Positions 3,897-18,273 of a stretch of 38,348 nucleotides of DNA are shown here, in pieces (within the stretch, counting starts at the first letter, position 1; each line of letters begins with the position of its first letter). A program made the position numbers and the translations under genes. The notes under the pieces were generated by a model. That model worked only from the letters and a program-made list of their open reading frames with translations. It was not told the origin of the DNA and did not search any database. The DNA lies in assembly GCA_016471375.1 (NCBI GenBank), contig WGLZ01000059.1, forward strand, positions 1-38,348. Reading direction: 5' to 3'. The stretch is from Cyanobacteria bacterium RI_101. GTDB lineage: Bacteria > Cyanobacteriota > Cyanobacteriia > Cyanobacteriales > Microcystaceae.

Positions 3897-5855
3897 ATGA
3901 TTGATCCAGCCCTAGATTGGTCTCCCCTCTGGATTTCTTTAAAAATTGCCGGACTGGCGACGGTCTTAACCTTTTTTGCCGGGTTAACCAGCGCCCGATT
4001 GATGTTGGAATACCGCAATAAATTTCGAGGTCTAATTGATACTCTTTTAATTTCGCCCTTGGTTTTACCGCCGACGGTGGTGGGTTTTTTACTCCTGCTA
4101 CTTTTGGGGAAAAATAGCTGGGTGGGGCAACTGCTTAATCAATGGGGAATAACGGTCATTTTCACCTGGCAGGCCGCCGTCGTCAGCGCCGTCGTCGTCT
4201 CCTTTCCCTTGATGTATCGGACGACCCTCGGCGCCTTTGAGCAAATCGACCGCGACTTACTGGCCGCCGCCCGAACCTTGGGGCATTCGGAATGGTCGAT
4301 TTTCTGGCTCGTCATGATTCCCCTGGCCTATCGGGGCATTGTCGGAGGGACGATTTTAGCCTTTGCGCGGGCGCTGGGGGAATTTGGCGCCACTTTAATG
4401 CTGGCGGGCAATATTCCGGGACAGACCCAAACCTTGCCTTTAGCGATCTTTTTTGCGACGGAATCGGGGGATTACGAAACCGCTGGAGTTTGGGTGGCTA
4501 TTTTATTGTTAATCTCCTTATCCATCATCATCACCGTTAATTTTTGGGCCGAGTCTTCCCAAAAACCATCGGGATCGTTTTTAAATCTATTTTTATGGAA
4601 ACTGGCCCAGAAGATCGCTCATATTTCTCAAAATTTAACCCATCCTCTAAACGAGAGACAGGGCGATTATGTTTCGCCTAACTTTGAGGGGCTTTCCCTA
4701 GAGATTGAGAAGACTTTAGCTAACTTTAACCTACGGATTTCCCTAGAAGGAGACCGGCAACCCCTCGGACTTCTCGGCGCTTCCGGCTCCGGCAAAAGCA
4801 TGACCCTACGCTGTATCGCTGGACTCGAAGCGCCGGATCGGGGGCGAATTCTTGTTAATGGAGCCGTTTGGTTTGACGCCCAGCGCCGCGTTAATCTGCC
4901 GCCTTGCCGGCGCCGGGTGGGTTTTGTCTTTCAAAATTACGCCCTCTTTCCCCACTTAACCGCCTATCAAAATATCGCCTTTGGGGTTCAGAATTTACCG
5001 CGCTCGGAACAACGGCGCCGGGTGGAGTTAAAACTGGCCCAAATGCGGCTCCAGGATTTAGCCCACCGTTACCCATCCCAACTCTCCGGCGGACAACAGC
5101 AACGGGTGGCCCTGGCGAGGGCGCTCGCGATTGAGCCGGAAATTTTGCTCTTAGACGAACCTTTTTCGGCGCTGGATAGTCCACTGCGAACCCAGATGGA
5201 AAAAAATCTGCTAGAAACCCTTTCCATCTACCCTGGCGTTGTTCTGATGGTCTCCCATAATTTGGAAGAACTCTATCGGATTTGTCAGAATATTTTAGTG
5301 GTCTCCGCCGGTCAGGTCTTGAGCTATGGGGATAAAGAGCAAATTTTCCAAAATCCGCAAATCTACGAGGTCGCTCGACTGACAGGGTGTAAAAATTTCT
5401 CCCCTATTATTTACTTTAACCCCCAACAAATCTGGGCGACGGACTGGCATTGTCCCCTCACCTTGAGTCGTTCCCTCTCTCCCCAAACAACCCAGGTGGG
5501 TATTCGGGCCCATCATTTGCGCCTTAGAGAATTGGAAACTGGTTCCAGGATTTCCCCTCCTCCCTCCACACCGCCGGAACTGGAATTCACCGAAGACGGT
5601 TTAGCGGCGCTGTCCTCCCCATCCCCAGAGGTTTTAGCCCAAAATTCAATCAACGAGTTTCCCTGCTGGCTTGCGCAAAAAAGCGAAACGCCCCATCGGG
5701 TGACGCTCTACCTCAAACTACACCAGCCGCCGGAGCATGACCAAGACTATCACTTACAAATGGAGCTTTTTAAGGAAAATTGGCGGGTTTTAAGCCAGCG
5801 CCCCCAACCCTGGCGGTTATTCCTTGACCCCGAGCGCCTGTTGCCCCTGGAATAG
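3897..5855 (+). CDS. modBC: Molybdate ABC transporter, fused permease and ATPase (ModB-ModC)
   Basis: One 652-residue chain carries both halves of a molybdate importer. Residues ~1-225 are the ModB permease, with several membrane helices and the EAA-type loop (about DLLAAARTLGHSEW, then ALGEFGATLMLAGNIPGQT, the ModB signature). Residues ~265-480 are the ModC ATPase, with Walker A GASGSGKS, signature LSGGQQQR, Walker B LLLDEPF and switch His in VSHN. The last ~160 residues resemble the C-terminal regulatory (Mop/TOBE-like) part but are divergent and Pro-rich in the middle. ModBC fusions are known in cyanobacteria. No modA (periplasmic binding protein) lies nearby, so it must be encoded elsewhere. 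The next gene starts 77 bp downstream. Confidence 0.92.
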   Translation: MIDPALDWSPLWISLKIAGLATVLTFFAGLTSARLMLEYRNKFRGLIDTLLISPLVLPPTVVGFLLLLLLGKNSWVGQLLNQWGITVIFTWQAAVVSAVVVSFPLMYRTTLGAFEQIDRDLLAAARTLGHSEWSIFWLVMIPLAYRGIVGGTILAFARALGEFGATLMLAGNIPGQTQTLPLAIFFATESGDYETAGVWVAILLLISLSIIITVNFWAESSQKPSGSFLNLFLWKLAQKIAHISQNLTHPLNERQGDYVSPNFEGLSLEIEKTLANFNLRISLEGDRQPLGLLGASGSGKSMTLRCIAGLEAPDRGRILVNGAVWFDAQRRVNLPPCRRRVGFVFQNYALFPHLTAYQNIAFGVQNLPRSEQRRRVELKLAQMRLQDLAHRYPSQLSGGQQQRVALARALAIEPEILLLDEPFSALDSPLRTQMEKNLLETLSIYPGVVLMVSHNLEELYRICQNILVVSAGQVLSYGDKEQIFQNPQIYEVARLTGCKNFSPIIYFNPQQIWATDWHCPLTLSRSLSPQTTQVGIRAHHLRLRELETGSRISPPPSTPPELEFTEDGLAALSSPSPEVLAQNSINEFPCWLAQKSETPHRVTLYLKLHQPPEHDQDYHLQMELFKENWRVLSQRPQPWRLFLDPERLLPLE

Positions 5856-11452: not shown

Positions 11453-13402
11453 GTGTCGTCATCCACCCAGGTTCGTTCCCCTATTCGCCCTCCCCAGTCG
11501 AGTCAACGTCTGGGTTTCCTGCAGGGCGTCCGCCAATCGGCCAACGCCACGGTTTTGGGTTTCGCCCTCGTCAGTAGCGCCTTGTTGGCCGGGGGGCTGG
11601 TGGGCTTGGCGATCAGTTTCCGTAATCTCCCGGACGTGCGGGCGCTTAAATCCTACGTTCCGTCCCAAACCAGCTATATCTACGATGTCAAGGGGCGGGA
11701 AATCCTCAGCCTCCACGACGAAGAAAATCGGCAGATTGTCCCCCTCAGCCAAATCTCTCCCCACCTGAAGCGGGCGGTGTTGGCCATCGAGGACAGTAAT
11801 TTTTATCGCCACGGCGGCATTAATCCCAACAGCATCGGGCGGGCGCTGTTGGCCAACGTCAAGGAGGGCGGGGTCTCGGAAGGCGCGTCCACTCTGAGTA
11901 TGCAGTTGGTCAAAAACGTTTACCTCTCCCAGCAGAGAACCTTTACCCGCAAACTCGCGGAGGCCATTCTGGCTATCCGGGTGGAGCAGATTTTCAGCAA
12001 AGACCAAATTTTGGACATGTACCTCAATTACATCTATTGGGGTCACAATAACTACGGCGTGGAAACCGCGGCCCAGAGCTATTTTGCCAAACCCGCGGCC
12101 CAGCTTAATCTGGCGGAGGCGGCGCTACTGGCGGGAATGATCCAAGCGCCGGAGGCCCACAGCCCCTTTAATAACTTTAAACAAGCCAAAGCTCGGCAGG
12201 AAGTGGTCATCGACCGGATGTTAACCCTAGGTTGGATTACGCCCCAGGAGGCCAAGAGCGCCAAAAACGCCAAGCTGAAATTGGGCAAACCCACCGCCTG
12301 GCAGAGCAGTAAACTGCCCTACGTCACCGACGCCGTTTTGGCGGAACTGAAGGAAAAGCTCGGCGCCGAAGCGGTGCGGAAAGGGGGCCTGCGGGTGCAA
12401 ACCACGGTGGACTATAAAACCCAGAAATTAGCGGAAAACACGGTTTCCTCGGCCTACAAGCGCCTGCGGAACACGATGTATCGAGCGAAGGAACTCCAAA
12501 TCGCTCTGGTTTCCGTGGAACCCAATAGCCACTTTATTACCGCCATCGTCGGCGGGGTGGATTATAAAAAAAGCCAACTGAACCGAGCCTTCCAGTCTCG
12601 GCGCCAACCGGGGTCTTCCTTTAAACCCTTTGTCTATTACACCGGCTTCGCCTCCGGGCGTTTTACCCCGGATTCTCCAGTGCGGGACGTCCCCATGCGT
12701 TTCCGGGACGGCGGCATCTTCTACGCGCCCAAGAACTACGGCGGCGGCTTTTCCGGCGCGATGTCCATCCGCAGCGCCGTGGCCTCTTCCCAGAATATTC
12801 CGGCGGTTTGGCTCGGCTCCCAGGTGGGCATTAACAAAGTCATCGAAGTCTGTCGCCGTATGGGCATTAAAAGCCCCCTCCAGGGCGTCATTTCCCTACC
12901 CCTCGGATCAGTAGACGTGACGCCCCTGGATATGGCGGCGGCCTACGCCACCTTCGCCAGCAACGGCTGGTACTCCGAGCCGACCATTATTCTCCGGGTG
13001 ACGGACAATCAGGGACGGGTCTTGTTAGACCACCGCCCTAAACCCCAACTGGTGTTAGATCCCTGGGCCGCGGCCAGCACCTCCTCCGTCCTCTCCTCCG
13101 CCGTGATGGGGGGAACTGGCAAAGCGGCCTACCTGGGGCGCCCCACGGCGGGGAAAACCGGCACCACGGATAACGAGCGCAATGTCTGGTTTGTGGGCTA
13201 CATTCCCCAGATGGCCACCGCGGTTTGGATTGGAGACGACGCCAACCGTCCTTTAGGCAAAGGCATCACCGGCGGTCAATACGCGGCGCCGATCTGGGGC
13301 GCCTATATGCGCCAGGTGGTGAAGGATCTGCCGGTGGAACATTTCCCGGCGGCTTCTCAGTTTCCCCGCCCCAAAGCCGATAAACCCGCGCCGAAGTCCT
13401 AA
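11453..13402 (+). CDS. Class A penicillin-binding protein (PBP1A type)
   Basis: A bifunctional peptidoglycan synthase of 649 aa. A cytoplasmic tail of ~32 residues and one membrane anchor (about 33-57) precede a glycosyltransferase domain (about 80-260) with EDSNFYRHGG (catalytic Glu113), GASTLSMQLVKN, RKLAE and the LDMYLNYIYWG motif. The transpeptidase domain (about 330-610) has the three active-site boxes: SSFK (nucleophile Ser in QPGSSFKPF), SSQN and KTGT. It polymerises glycan strands and cross-links them on the outer face of the inner membrane. The start is GTG. The Nudix gene begins 3 bp after its stop, so the two are probably one transcript. Confidence 0.95.
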   Translation: MSSSTQVRSPIRPPQSSQRLGFLQGVRQSANATVLGFALVSSALLAGGLVGLAISFRNLPDVRALKSYVPSQTSYIYDVKGREILSLHDEENRQIVPLSQISPHLKRAVLAIEDSNFYRHGGINPNSIGRALLANVKEGGVSEGASTLSMQLVKNVYLSQQRTFTRKLAEAILAIRVEQIFSKDQILDMYLNYIYWGHNNYGVETAAQSYFAKPAAQLNLAEAALLAGMIQAPEAHSPFNNFKQAKARQEVVIDRMLTLGWITPQEAKSAKNAKLKLGKPTAWQSSKLPYVTDAVLAELKEKLGAEAVRKGGLRVQTTVDYKTQKLAENTVSSAYKRLRNTMYRAKELQIALVSVEPNSHFITAIVGGVDYKKSQLNRAFQSRRQPGSSFKPFVYYTGFASGRFTPDSPVRDVPMRFRDGGIFYAPKNYGGGFSGAMSIRSAVASSQNIPAVWLGSQVGINKVIEVCRRMGIKSPLQGVISLPLGSVDVTPLDMAAAYATFASNGWYSEPTIILRVTDNQGRVLLDHRPKPQLVLDPWAAASTSSVLSSAVMGGTGKAAYLGRPTAGKTGTTDNERNVWFVGYIPQMATAVWIGDDANRPLGKGITGGQYAAPIWGAYMRQVVKDLPVEHFPAASQFPRPKADKPAPKS

Positions 13403-14262: not shown

Positions 14263-15813
14263 TTACTCAACAACAAACGCGGGCTTGATTTGGGTAAGAC
14301 AGCGGCTATCGGGCATTTGCCGCGGGTTAGCAAGAAAGTCGGCGGCGAGTTGAGTCACACAGGTTTCCGCGGGCATCCCCTCCGGCGCAAATAACGCCCC
14401 ATGCCCGACGCCGGGGAAGGTGTAAACATAGGCGGTTTTAAAGTTCTTAGCCACGGCTTCCCCGTAGGGAGGGGGGGTGACCGGGTCGTAAGCGCCATTC
14501 AACACCAGAGTGGGAATCTCTGGATTTTCGTAGACAAAGGGCGGTTGCAACTCGACCTGGAGAACTGCACAGGCTTTTGTCACCGCTTCGGCTTCGCGGA
14601 TGCCTAAGGGGATGAGTTGGGGATAGGGCAGAGGCAACGCCTGGGCGGGCGCGACTTGAATCGATTTCGCCCGAGCGCAGAGGACAGTGTGATACATTTC
14701 CCTCGCCCCCGAAGGTTCCAGATCCCCTGAAAGATTTTCCGCCATCCAACTAAAGTTACCCTGACTTGCGGACTCGATAAACTTGGGTAAAGAACTGCCG
14801 CGGGCTGTGTTACCGGAATAGGGTCGGGCTAAATAAGGCTCGATCCCAATGATAAAGGCATTGCCATCGAGTTGGGTTACGAATGTTTTTTTGCTGGAGG
14901 GAATGGTCAAGGTCAAGGAAATTGGTTTCTGGTTGAGTTGATCGACGATGGCCAGAAATTTCTGCTCCAGGTTGGGATAGGCTGAGCCGCATTGTTGATC
15001 TTGGGCGCAGGCGTGAAACACATTCCGCAGGGCGTAGCTGATCGTGTGACCCGACGCCAGATTAAAATCAATATCCGGTCTGACCACGCCATCTAGGATC
15101 ACACTGCGGAGTTTTGCCTTGTGCTTGTCCGCCTGGGCAATGACATATTGCCCCAACAACGTGCCGTAGGAAACGCCATAGTAGTTGAATTGCGAATAGC
15201 CTAAGGTCTCTGCGACAAAATACACATCAGCCGCATTTTCGCGAGTATTGAAAGCGCTGGGGTTAATCCCTTGAGCCTTGAAGCGATCGTTACAGGCCTT
15301 GATCCAGCTTGGATCGGTGTAATTTTGCTGGCCTTGCGCCACAGCAATATTGTGAGCGTTAAGCTCTGGACAGAACAGGAAAGGCTTGGAATACCGTGTC
15401 CCCCGCTCCTCTACGAAGATCAAATCGCGACTCTTTAACAAGGCTGGTAGCTCGGGAAACCGCGGCAAAGCCCCATCCACAATATCGCCGATGGTTGAGT
15501 CACCAGGCCCCCCCTGTTCCACAAACAATGGATCGGCGTCAGGGGCTTTACTGGCGCTACGGGTGCGGATCACGCCAAGTTGGAGGACGCGTCCCCGGGG
15601 TTGGGCGCGCTGTTCGGGGACGGTGACGTAGCCGCAATCTGACTGGGCGGCAATGGCGGCAGGCACGTCAAAGGTTTTGCAGTCAACGGTTTGCCAGGCC
15701 GCGCCAAATTTGGCGCGAGTGGGGGTTGCGCCATTAACGGTACTGCTACTGGCGGCAACAACTGCGACCGCAAGAAGAGTGAATTGGCAAAGATGAGTGA
15801 GCTGGCTGTTCAT
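14263..15813 (-). CDS. Secreted alpha/beta hydrolase of the TAP/prolyl aminopeptidase type
   Basis: 516 residues. A signal peptide (hydrophobic part about 10-28) precedes the mature enzyme. The alpha/beta-hydrolase core has the oxyanion strand with GGPGDS (101-106), nucleophile elbow GVSYG (Ser215), a late Asp in NGAYDPVTPP and catalytic His in GVGHGALF. A C-terminal TAP-like segment carries Cys residues (ETCVTQL, DSRCL) that may pair. Relatives are Streptomyces tripeptidyl aminopeptidases and other exported peptidases; the exact substrate is open. No GGCGCC was found in its 1.5 kb, in contrast with neighbours, suggesting later acquisition. Its start codon lies 13 bp from a MITE copy, so its promoter must lie inside or beyond that element. 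Confidence 0.87.
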   Translation of the reverse strand: MNSQLTHLCQFTLLAVAVVAASSSTVNGATPTRAKFGAAWQTVDCKTFDVPAAIAAQSDCGYVTVPEQRAQPRGRVLQLGVIRTRSASKAPDADPLFVEQGGPGDSTIGDIVDGALPRFPELPALLKSRDLIFVEERGTRYSKPFLFCPELNAHNIAVAQGQQNYTDPSWIKACNDRFKAQGINPSAFNTRENAADVYFVAETLGYSQFNYYGVSYGTLLGQYVIAQADKHKAKLRSVILDGVVRPDIDFNLASGHTISYALRNVFHACAQDQQCGSAYPNLEQKFLAIVDQLNQKPISLTLTIPSSKKTFVTQLDGNAFIIGIEPYLARPYSGNTARGSSLPKFIESASQGNFSWMAENLSGDLEPSGAREMYHTVLCARAKSIQVAPAQALPLPYPQLIPLGIREAEAVTKACAVLQVELQPPFVYENPEIPTLVLNGAYDPVTPPPYGEAVAKNFKTAYVYTFPGVGHGALFAPEGMPAETCVTQLAADFLANPRQMPDSRCLTQIKPAFVVE

Positions 15814-15826
15814 GAGGGATTTTCTT

Positions 15827-15958
15827 GGCTCTCCGGGGATCCAGTAGAGGATTATATCTTGTTATACAATTCTTGCTTGGGTCACCAGCAAGAAAACCTG
15901 ATGCAGTAAGAGTTCCGGCTATTTTACTTCCCTCATACCAGCCTGATTTTTGGAGAGC
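15827..15958. mobile_element. ISL3-like MITE, copy 1
   Basis: About 132 bp, non-coding. The left end is GGCTCTCCGGGGAT, the right end is TTTTTGGAGAGC (right repeat slightly eroded). It is homologous to copy 2 at 17303-17434: both share TATCTTGTTATACAATT near the left, CAGTAAG near the middle and ACCAGCCT before the right end. GGCTCT termini are typical of ISL3 elements. No target duplication is found around this copy, which fits a rearrangement after insertion. Reading leftwards it holds TATAAT (complement of 15850-15855), about 37 bases before the hydrolase start. Confidence 0.82.
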
Positions 15959-16006
15959 TAACTTATCAAAATAACCTGTTAAATTGTAATCAACCAAAAT
16001 AATCAT
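15959..16006 (-). pseudogene. Truncated toxin gene (DUF5615-like), only the N-terminus left
   Basis: The ATG (complement of 16004-16006) overlaps the TGA of the DUF433 gene by four bases (ATGA), the classic layout of an antitoxin-toxin pair. It reads MIILVDYNLTGYFDKLA, like the first strand of PIN-like DUF5615 proteins that accompany DUF433 in cyanobacteria, and then runs into the MITE. The open frame continues through the element as unrelated sequence to a stop at 15746. The rest of the toxin is not found on the far side of the MITE, so it has been deleted. Family assignment rests on ~15 residues and context. Confidence 0.6.
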
Positions 16007-16377
16007 GCCATCAGTCCAAGCTTTGCTTTCCAAGCCTGGAGTTTAGCATAGACTTTTTCTTGCCCTTGCTTTGGTGGCAATTTAGCGATTTGAGCTAAAC
16101 GTTCCCGATTTTTATCTTCCCAATATTTCTGTCTTTCCTGAGTTTCCTGTAGAACAGCATTATACTCCGCTTTTACCGCAGACTGGTTAGCATTAATGTA
16201 GGAAAGCGCTACATTAAGCTGCTCTTCTGTTAAAGGAAGCCAGTTCAGAATTAGCTTGGGTGACCAACCGGCTTCAAGATGCTCTATGACATCGTAGAGA
16301 GTAATGCGTGTACTTGCAATTGTCAAACCATGCTCCGTACGGATAATTTCTGTGTGTTTATCAGATGTTGGAGTCAT
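16003..16377 (-). CDS. DUF433-family antitoxin, orphaned
   Basis: About 124 residues from the ATG at 16377 (longer starts up to 16470 would run over the neighbour's promoter). The N-terminal half, IIRTEHGLTIASTRITLYDVIEHLEAGWSP and onward to WLPLTEEQLNVALSYI, is the DUF433 winged-helix-like domain seen in antitoxins of VapB/DUF433 type. The C-terminal half is charged and helical (ETQERQKYWEDKNRERLAQI). Its stop overlaps the start of the truncated toxin gene. With no toxin left it is expected to be dispensable, or a lone DNA-binding protein. It diverges from the WD40 gene, with 77 bp between starts. Confidence 0.8.
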   Translation of the reverse strand: MTPTSDKHTEIIRTEHGLTIASTRITLYDVIEHLEAGWSPKLILNWLPLTEEQLNVALSYINANQSAVKAEYNAVLQETQERQKYWEDKNRERLAQIAKLPPKQGQEKVYAKLQAWKAKLGLMA

Positions 16378-16454
16378 CTCATTAGCTTTAGTTTGATGGA
16401 ATGTGCCTCTATAATAACTTACAAAAAAACAAGGTGGGCAATACCGACCTCGCG

Positions 16455-18273
16455 ATGAAAGAGCCTTCAATCCCTAACCCCGATATTTACATCCTCGGCG
16501 GTCTCGGCGCCGGAGCCGTTGCGGCTCAAACCGTTGGCGGCGTCGGTCTGGTCGGCTCTTTTGGGGGTCTGGGTCTGGGCGCTCCAGTTTTAATCGGGCT
16601 AGGAGGACTCGGCGGCGCCGCTTGTTATGGCGCGGTTCAGGGCTGGCGGACTGAGGACGGTATGGCCCTAGGCGCCGTTACGTTGGGAGCTTTAGGCGGC
16701 GCGGGCTGGTCTGCCGCCTTTGGCGGCGTTGGGGTAGGGATTGGCGGCGCCGCTTTTGGCGCGGGTTTAGGAACCTTAAGCGCCGCTGGGGGGATTTTCG
16801 GTCTGGGGATCTACGGCGCCGCGCGACTGTTAGGGCAACCTTCGGCGGGACGGAAAGCGGCGGAAAATTTATGTTTTTTGGAGAACTTGACTCAGGAGCG
16901 GACGCTAGAGCACAGTTTTCGCTCTCTAGAAATTGACAAAGAATTACGGCGCTTGCAAGCTCAACTGGGGCGTGAGCCGCAACCCGCCGCGGCTCCGTCA
17001 ACGATGAGCGCTGGAGCAAAACACGCCGAGACCGACGCCTCGGACTGGGAAATTAGCGCCGAACCCCTACTGCACGTCAAACCCGTTACCGCCCTCGCTT
17101 TTTCCTCCGATAGTCGATATTTGTTCAGCGCCAGCCATAGCGGTCAGGTCAAAATCTGGGATCTGTTATTAAGTAACGAGTTTATACCTTCTACTATGGT
17201 CAGAAAGAAATTAACGCTCTCCTGTTTCTTTCCCAACGGGATTTGCTCCTATCTAGCGGCGCCAGTCGCGAGATTTCGGGGTACTTTCTAGAGAAAAAAA
17301 CGGGCTCTCTGGGGATCACGCCGAGACTTGTATCTTGTTATACAATTACGATTTGACATTAACTCAGAAAAGCTCATCCAGTAAGGGTTCTGGCCAATTG
17401 GCTCCCTAACTACCAGCCTCATTCCCGGAGAGCCAAAAAACGATTTTTCTGGGTTTTACTCCGCCCCTTGCGTCCCAAGCCCATACCGGTGCCGTTTTGA
17501 CCTTAACCGGCGCTCCCCGCGGAGAGTGGATTGCCAGCGCGGGCGCCGACCGGACGATCAAACTTTGGTCAAAGGAAGGCAAGTATTTAAAAACCCTAAC
17601 CGGCCATGGCGATAGCGTTTTGGATCTGGCTTTTATTCCCGACTCCCCCTTACTAGCCAGCGCCGACGCCGACGGCGTTATCCGCCTCTGGGATTATTGC
17701 AACGGCGCCCCTAGAGGCGTTTTCGGCCCCCTAACCGCCCCGGTAACTGGCTTAAAAGCGACTCCCGACGGCGCTCGACTGTTTAGCGGCGCCGAGGACG
17801 GAACTGTGGCCCGTTGGAACCTTACTAAGGGGGAAATTGAAGAAACGGCGCTCGCTCACCTCGACCCTCTCCTTTCCTTGGATTTGTCCCCCGACGGTCG
17901 CCTTCTGGTCACCGCCAGCGCCGGGGAGGTCAAACTTTGGGACGCCTCCCGTCTAACCGTTTTACAAACTCTACCCGGCGCCGCTCCGGTTCGATTCTCC
18001 CCGGATGGTCAATATTTAGTCTGCGGCAACCGCCCCAAGGGGCTGAAAATTTGGCGCCGGTTTAATTTAAGCCGTCCTCCCTGGATTTCGATACCGAACC
18101 CCCGCTGGTGGCAAGTTTTGGGGATCGCGCCCACCGCCTCCCCGGCGGAGATTCGGCGGAAATACCATCAGTTATCCCGGCGCTATCACCCGGATCTCAA
18201 TCCGGCGCCGGAAGCGGGAGCGTGGATGAGCGCCGTTAATCGGGCTTATGAGTCCTTTGCGGATCGCGGCTGA
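16455..18273 (+). pseudogene. WD40/J-domain protein gene, broken by a frameshift and a MITE
   Basis: The gene starts at ATG 16455 (MKEPSIPNPDIYILGG). Residues ~10-135 are Gly/Ala-rich with many GxxxG steps, probably membrane-associated, then a charged linker. WD40 repeats begin near PVTALAFSSDSRYLFSASHS and KIWDL. At about 17180-17183 one base appears lost: the frame moves to TFYYGQKEINALLFL and LLLSSGASREISGYFLEKKT. At 17303 a 132 bp MITE with 8-bp duplication intervenes. The frame resumes at 17443 (IFLGFTP, then TGAVLTLTGAPRGEWIASAG and further WD repeats) and ends in a J domain (WWQVLGIAPTASPAEIRRKY, HPD in YHPDLNP). Intact, it would have had ~7 WD repeats, one propeller, plus an Hsp70-recruiting J domain. 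The second part may still be translated from an internal start such as TTG 17497. Confidence 0.85.
17295..17442. mobile_element. ISL3-like MITE, copy 2, with 8-bp target duplication
   Basis: The element spans 17303-17434 (132 bp). Terminal repeats are GGCTCTCTGGGGAT on the left and ATTCCCGGAGAGCC on the right. It is flanked by AAAAAACG at 17295-17302 and again at 17435-17442. GGCTCT ends with an 8-bp, A/T-rich duplication are the hallmarks of the ISL3 family; no transposase is present, so movement would need an ISL3 transposase elsewhere. Element plus one duplication is 140 bp, not a multiple of three, and deleting exactly this joins the two WD40 frames. Confidence 0.9.

Follow-up and report, generated by a model that had tools for sequence, protein, structure and literature searches.

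A broken gene in Cyanobacteria bacterium RI_101 belongs to a conserved family of WD40–J-domain proteins with apparent kinship to PspA/IM30

The window analysed here, a stretch of 38,348 bp, comes from a draft genome assembly of 3.75 Mb in 102 contigs. At 16455–18273 it carries the pieces of one gene, which codes for a Gly-rich module, a linker, a seven-bladed WD40 propeller and a C-terminal J domain with the HPD motif. The reading frame of this copy is interrupted by a frame switch and by a MITE. The features are the following:

16455–17178, plus strand: 5′ piece with Gly-rich module, linker and first WD40 blade (ORF list, Pfam WD40, N-module profile)
16488–16832, plus strand: Gly-rich hydrophobic N-module, two tandem repeats of ~57 aa (alignment with 21 other copies; 104.8 bits)
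16833–17072, plus strand: linker (7.7 bits with the PspA/IM30 C-terminal profile, best shuffle 7.3; no Pfam match)
17177–17302, plus strand: part of the second blade in a shifted frame (translation in the frame continuing into the 3′ piece)
17295–17302, plus strand: target-site duplication AAAAAACG, left copy (sequence)
17303–17434, plus strand: MITE-like element of 132 bp with terminal inverted repeats (ends GGCTCTC.../...GAGAGCC; repeat matches)
17435–17442, plus strand: target-site duplication AAAAAACG, right copy (sequence)
17443–18270, plus strand: 3′ piece with the remaining WD40 blades and the C-terminal J domain (Pfam; stop at 18271–18273)
18106–18264, plus strand: J domain (PF00226, 48.2 bits)
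18187–18195, plus strand: HPD motif of the J domain (sequence; invariant in alignments A1 and A2)

The 5′ piece lies in an ORF at 16401–17291 that holds an in-frame ATG at 16455, and residues 207–236 counted from this codon match a single Pfam WD40 repeat (32.5 bits). Pfam searches of the 3′ piece gave WD40 in four stretches (129.8 bits) and DnaJ (44.9 bits, cut-off 27.8), so the C-terminal J domain with HPD reported in the preliminary description of this DNA is recovered. The same piece matched a profile of the last blades and J domain over positions 3–140 of 140 with 170.7 bits, the profile itself including the window copy. The preliminary description had also assigned the Gly-rich, WD40 and J parts to one gene. 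We queried the 5′ and 3′ pieces separately in 58 genomes (own included) and, since both fell in the same proteins, we regard them as pieces of one gene. At least 11 of the 58 genomes (G001, G008, G009, G010, G012, G014, G018, G025, G033, G038 and G044) contain the three parts in an uninterrupted ORF of 558–630 aa.

The insertion was previously described as a MITE plus an 8-bp duplication, 140 bp together, and this is what the flanks show: a 132-bp element bordered on both sides by the duplicated octamer. The element is short, present in many copies, and has terminal inverted repeats and a target-site duplication, as expected of a MITE. It has 21 matches in its own genome (itself included), and those spanning its full length are 68–99 % identical to the window copy. 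Among the best-scoring eight distinct copies of the 21, seven have an 8-bp target-site duplication, read by eye from the flanks (scripted offsets gave 7–9). The frame break had been reported near 17181; we place the switch between about 17174 and 17187, after which the homologous reading runs in another frame to 17302, and in a draft assembly this switch could be an assembly error. Whatever its cause, the MITE by itself breaks the gene, and the window copy is a pseudogene.

We consider it very improbable that assembly artefacts account for the breaks and that the living cell has an intact copy. The draft state of the genome, the single place of the frame switch and the third-position GC of the two pieces (0.58 and 0.62, inside the range of the neighbours) would be compatible with such a reading. 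It is opposed by the multi-copy nature of the MITE with its target-site duplication and by the state of the gene in the window's genus, where among five genomes one copy is intact, two are broken (the window's and another without the 5′ half) and two genomes have no match at E 1e-30. The window row is also the longest branch of the family tree (1.87), a value to be read with its odd letter make-up in mind.

Intact orthologues with the same three parts, which the preliminary description had suggested looking for, were found. We recovered 32 full-length three-part proteins, 31 of them with HPD, and these 31 represent one per genome. Snowella sp. ULC335bin1 has the same family label (f1) as the window, and its locus L089 gives a 621-aa protein identical to that of genome G008. 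In an alignment of 12 proteins, WW, HPD, N, M and AY of the J domain are invariant; the window copy keeps all of these but has I for V, R for K and S for Q at three positions that do not vary in the 12. The NCBIfam DnaJ model TIGR02349 was matched only at positions 2–55 of 354 in the window piece and at 2–51 in three other loci (L068, L069 and L203), and because the match covers the J part only, the proteins are taken to be without the G/F region, the zinc finger and the class A/B C-terminal domains. Judged by its predicted domains, this is a class C (type III) J-domain protein family conserved in cyanobacteria.

Of 386 genomes sampled across the phylum, 34 carry the WD40-J junction, all of them in the window's order, Cyanobacteriales; decayed copies are counted in. 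Above 120 bits the profile had 35 matches, of which 34 extend to position 139–140 of 140; the next match (91.8 bits) was WD40 only. The fusion, previously called rare, is thus limited in distribution, but the family is better described as patchy than as very rare. Some members have no detected N-module (G043, G053, G192, the last at a contig edge, and the second copy of G038). This second copy (L077:5307–6434, minus strand, 375 aa) stands in tandem beside the full one. Outside the order and within the class, G220 has the module and WD40 without J. A scan of named genomes matched on the J-domain peptide, and 77 of the 80 matches listed were loci other than WD40-J in one ORF. None of 308 matching plasmid records covers 80 % of the query. 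The portions consulted of the open-access literature, including PMC4365693, PMC5851275 and PMC7281324, hold no description of a J domain fused to WD40 or to PspA.

The structure of the Snowella protein was modelled by AlphaFold2 (6 rows, mean pLDDT 63.8, pTM 0.51). The model contains 28 propeller strands, mostly of high confidence, at 252–547 (7 × 4), which agrees with the about seven repeats estimated for the broken gene; in another member (L202), Pfam finds seven WD40 stretches. The J domain has a pLDDT of about 53–77, a long helix runs through residues 133–197, and the N-module, hydrophobic and nearly uncharged, shows low-confidence helices below pLDDT 50. WD40 propellers lead among the Foldseek matches listed for this model. 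In PADLOC, one model hits the WD40 repeats in three of four queries, with one weak match besides, and we judged this incidental.

In a quick tree of 41 rows, members of f25, f1 and f2 each fall on one side of a branch (support 83, 83 and 100), and the family labels need seven changes, which is the minimum. Such a tree is compatible with a single fusion that was passed on for the most part vertically and lost in places. The two f5 copies stay apart, 14 of the 38 inner branches are left open, and rooting was by midpoint only. The window row stands apart from its genus mates, and its C-terminal piece is only 36 % identical to that of G001; holding the window, G001 and G004 together was neither shown nor rejected (p-AU 0.163).

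Nine copies, window included, look decayed, some perhaps through assembly faults. G015 has an in-frame stop and a J domain cut after HPD, and the J domain is cut also in G293. The 5′ half is missing at a contig start in G004, in whose genome no N-module was found, and the 5′ part is missing in G122 and in G186, the latter with HTD in place of HPD. Nostoc sp. 106C retains two ORFs, 403 and 190 aa long; Sphaerospermopsis kisseleviana NIES-73 has a stop-containing remnant whose J part scores 83.2 bits, and the G077 copy (256 aa) ends after the first blade. The copy of Planktothrix sp. UBA8402 (L088) was dropped from this list because its interruption coincides with undetermined bases. Since decay is repeated, the WD40-J protein is dispensable. 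The frequent loss, the HTD of the decayed G186 and the large number of WD40 proteins in the genomes searched (among the matches listed) could be taken to mean that the J domain is a mere leftover without an active role on the WD40 scaffold. We give this reading very little credence, as HPD is kept in 31 of the 32 full-length proteins and is invariant in both alignments.

The N-terminal module was aligned in 22 copies; of the 15 columns that are invariant, 11 are Gly. Up to the module end, the 32 full-length proteins contain 20–29 % Gly, 1–7 K/R and 2–6 D/E; a 19-residue segment averaging 1.6 or more in hydropathy occurs at least once in the N-terminal region of every protein. Seven module sequences gave no Pfam family above the cut-off. 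A pore-forming domain for one stand-alone N-module (Pfam 15.7 bits, cut-off 27) was judged a chance match, and the best PDB match of the N-module (E 0.042) was not accepted. The module is present in some form in 37 of 291 genomes (E 1e-6). Among 18 scanned module ORFs outside full WD40-J genes, four are PspA/IM30 paralogues, and in all four the module follows an alpha0-like start and precedes helix alpha1. Our own PspA/IM30 profile gave 225.8 bits for the paralogue of G194, 191.5 for G220, 175.1 for G159 and 62.9 for the C-terminally short one of G204; two were above the Pfam cut-off of 33.9 (G204 with 47.1 and G159 with 119.5 bits). G194, G159 and G204 also carry WD40-J. The shortened paralogue of G204 (L199:9266–10069, minus strand, 267 aa) lies directly upstream of the full WD40-J gene on the same strand, at ~0.3 kb, and in G194 (L269:157–1944, minus strand) a stand-alone module ORF (183 aa) adjoins the module-bearing PspA/IM30 (382 aa). 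Found inside PspA/IM30 paralogues and alone, the Gly-rich module is a candidate new domain.

PspA/IM30 (Vipp1; PF04012) is the bacterial ESCRT-III, a membrane-remodelling protein. With a profile built from 15 cyanobacterial PspA/IM30 C-termini, we tested 33 linkers preceding the propeller, 32 from the intact proteins and that of the window, and 23 of them resemble the PspA/IM30 C-terminal region at 10 bits or more (best 43.8). The ten below this value are those of the window (7.7), G038, G012, G014, G009 and five g7 genomes. None of 660 shuffled linkers reached 10 bits (524 reported, best 7.3), nor did any of the 33 reversed ones (best 5.9), and, of the ORFs kept from the loci, those passing E 0.01 with this profile all belong to the WD40-J family. 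Profile-profile comparison of 16 linkers, picked by eye for the motif with most of those lacking it left out, against 13 PspA/IM30 domains gave a probability of 98.2 % and E 2.7e-14; the aligned part, 53 columns at the extreme C-terminus, is 47 % identical. Against the PDB, the nine distinct best chains for the linker profile were all Vipp1/PspA (E 1e-10 to 1e-7, residues about 161–217), and the next match had E 0.064. Single linkers scored 12.6–20.8 bits with PF04012, below the cut-off of 33.9, in five of seven intact linkers, and one WD40-J protein matched PF04012 in a whole-genome search (21.6 bits, E 6.7e-4).

The shared segment corresponds to Vipp1 residues about 161–217. In three aligned WD40-J proteins the alpha5 region is kept, the hairpin helices alpha1–alpha3 and alpha0 are absent, and WD40 and J domains are added. 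Because of the absent hairpin, the protein is not a member of PspA/IM30 and is only part-derived: the family appears, from its sequences, to derive partly from PspA/IM30, with which four paralogues also share the Gly-rich module. A membrane location of the WD40-J protein, raised as a possibility in the preliminary description, perhaps gains some indirect support from this kinship.

A comparable arrangement is known from Chlamydomonas chloroplasts, where CDJ2 with HSP70B and CGE1 acts on VIPP1 (PMC6882379, PMC13051332, PMC3720927), and IM30 rods are disassembled by HSP70-CDJ2-CGE1 with ATP (PMC6882379). In Synechocystis, DnaK2 and DnaK3 interact with Vipp1 (PMC4297356, where DnaJ is unmentioned in the part consulted). 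The window's genome, searched for a partner Hsp70 as the preliminary description had suggested, encodes four full-length Hsp70 proteins and one full-length PspA/IM30 (237.6 bits). From these observations we propose a class C J protein of partly PspA/IM30 origin; it would dock on PspA/IM30-type polymers, or on the same membrane, and bring a DnaK to remodel them, a reading to which we give about even chances. The PspA/IM30-like segment, perhaps with the Gly-rich module, would do the docking, the propeller would hold a partner, and the J domain would trigger a DnaK, so that polymers are taken apart or rebuilt. We infer such docking, membrane attachment and Hsp70 stimulation from the shared domains and by analogy to CDJ2, which sends Hsp70 to IM30/VIPP1 polymers. 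As far as the descriptions consulted go, which are compared here as text, WD40 and a Gly-rich module are unmentioned for CDJ2. A CDJ2 homologue is stated to be absent from cyanobacteria in PMC3720927, whose search, in the part consulted, covered Synechocystis PCC 6803. As the WD40-J junction occurs in only 34 of the 386 genomes, the protein is not a general J partner of Vipp1.

Other known proteins share single parts of this architecture. In Synechocystis PCC 6803, the class C J proteins Sll0909, Sll1011, Sll1384 and Sll1666 have in common with WD40-J a J domain without class A/B parts, and the role suggested for class C is to localise Hsp70; compared by description only, they are given no WD40 in the consulted part of PMC7609799. 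Prokaryotic WD40 proteins, which include propellers in cyanobacteria, have DnaJ among their gene neighbours, not fused, and fused kinases are reported (PMC5587647, as far as consulted). DnaJ fused to FNIII-repeat proteins is described in conflict systems (PMC7159879).

The class C protein might instead send Hsp70 to some other client bound by the WD40 propeller, the PspA/IM30-like segment being left over from a fused gene as no more than a spacer or a helix for oligomerisation. This is a serious possibility, somewhat short of even chances. The propeller and J domain stay in the ten linker variants where the segment is lost or unrecognisable, and in the family holding Nostoc 17 of 19 loci have a neighbour gene downstream, three of them with a short intervening ORF. 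Two scanned members of this neighbour are GH100 invertases, at a gap of ~0.8–0.9 kb in the two loci measured, and may be mere synteny. Such a client does not account for the PspA/IM30 pattern (F-RMEEK ... KFAALE ... ELQALKAK) kept across several host families where the segment is present, nor for the same Gly-rich module inside PspA/IM30 paralogues.

For action on PspA/IM30-type polymers, the kept alpha5 region is of interest, as alpha5 binds the hairpin tip of a neighbouring subunit (PMC8281802). Having lost the hairpin, the part that polymerises, the protein could bind the end or side of a polymer without extending it. More tentatively, and in our view rather doubtfully, it could be a disassembly adaptor for ESCRT-III-like polymers, a hairpin-less PspA/IM30 relative whose alpha5 segment would cap or insert into polymers, first those of the Gly-rich-module paralogues, and whose WD40-J head would call DnaK. 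Such an adaptor would take the place that Vps4 has in eukaryotes. The matter bears on how cyanobacteria take apart PspA/IM30 polymers, a task for which the consulted portions of the literature report binding of Vipp1 by DnaK2 and DnaK3 and name no J protein. A conserved protein that combines a J domain with a putative docking segment of PspA/IM30 type opens this question to experiment, at least in lineages possessing such a protein.

Regarding the gene neighbourhood, consistent synteny between the window and the first 20 orthologue loci is absent. Among 41 loci, some neighbour clusters span families, at varying places. One (cluster 11, six loci) includes the window ORF 11453–13402, a penicillin-binding protein by Pfam, and another (cluster 4, eight loci) was assigned the window ORF 3897–5855 (ABC transporter) by length. 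Both were provisionally taken as common families rather than as partners of WD40-J. Divergently upstream of the broken gene lies a small minus-strand ORF (16003–16470) with a DUF433 domain (33.1 bits). The stretch 15860–16454 is AT-rich (40.7 % GC) and free of GGCGCC, a hexamer which we take to be perhaps a HIP1-like repeat of the source genome and which occurs at ~7 per kb in the gene pieces (16455–18273) against 2.6 per kb in the window. A diverged relative of the MITE (73 % identical) is located at 15827–15961, just upstream of an alpha/beta-hydrolase ORF (14263–15813, minus strand).
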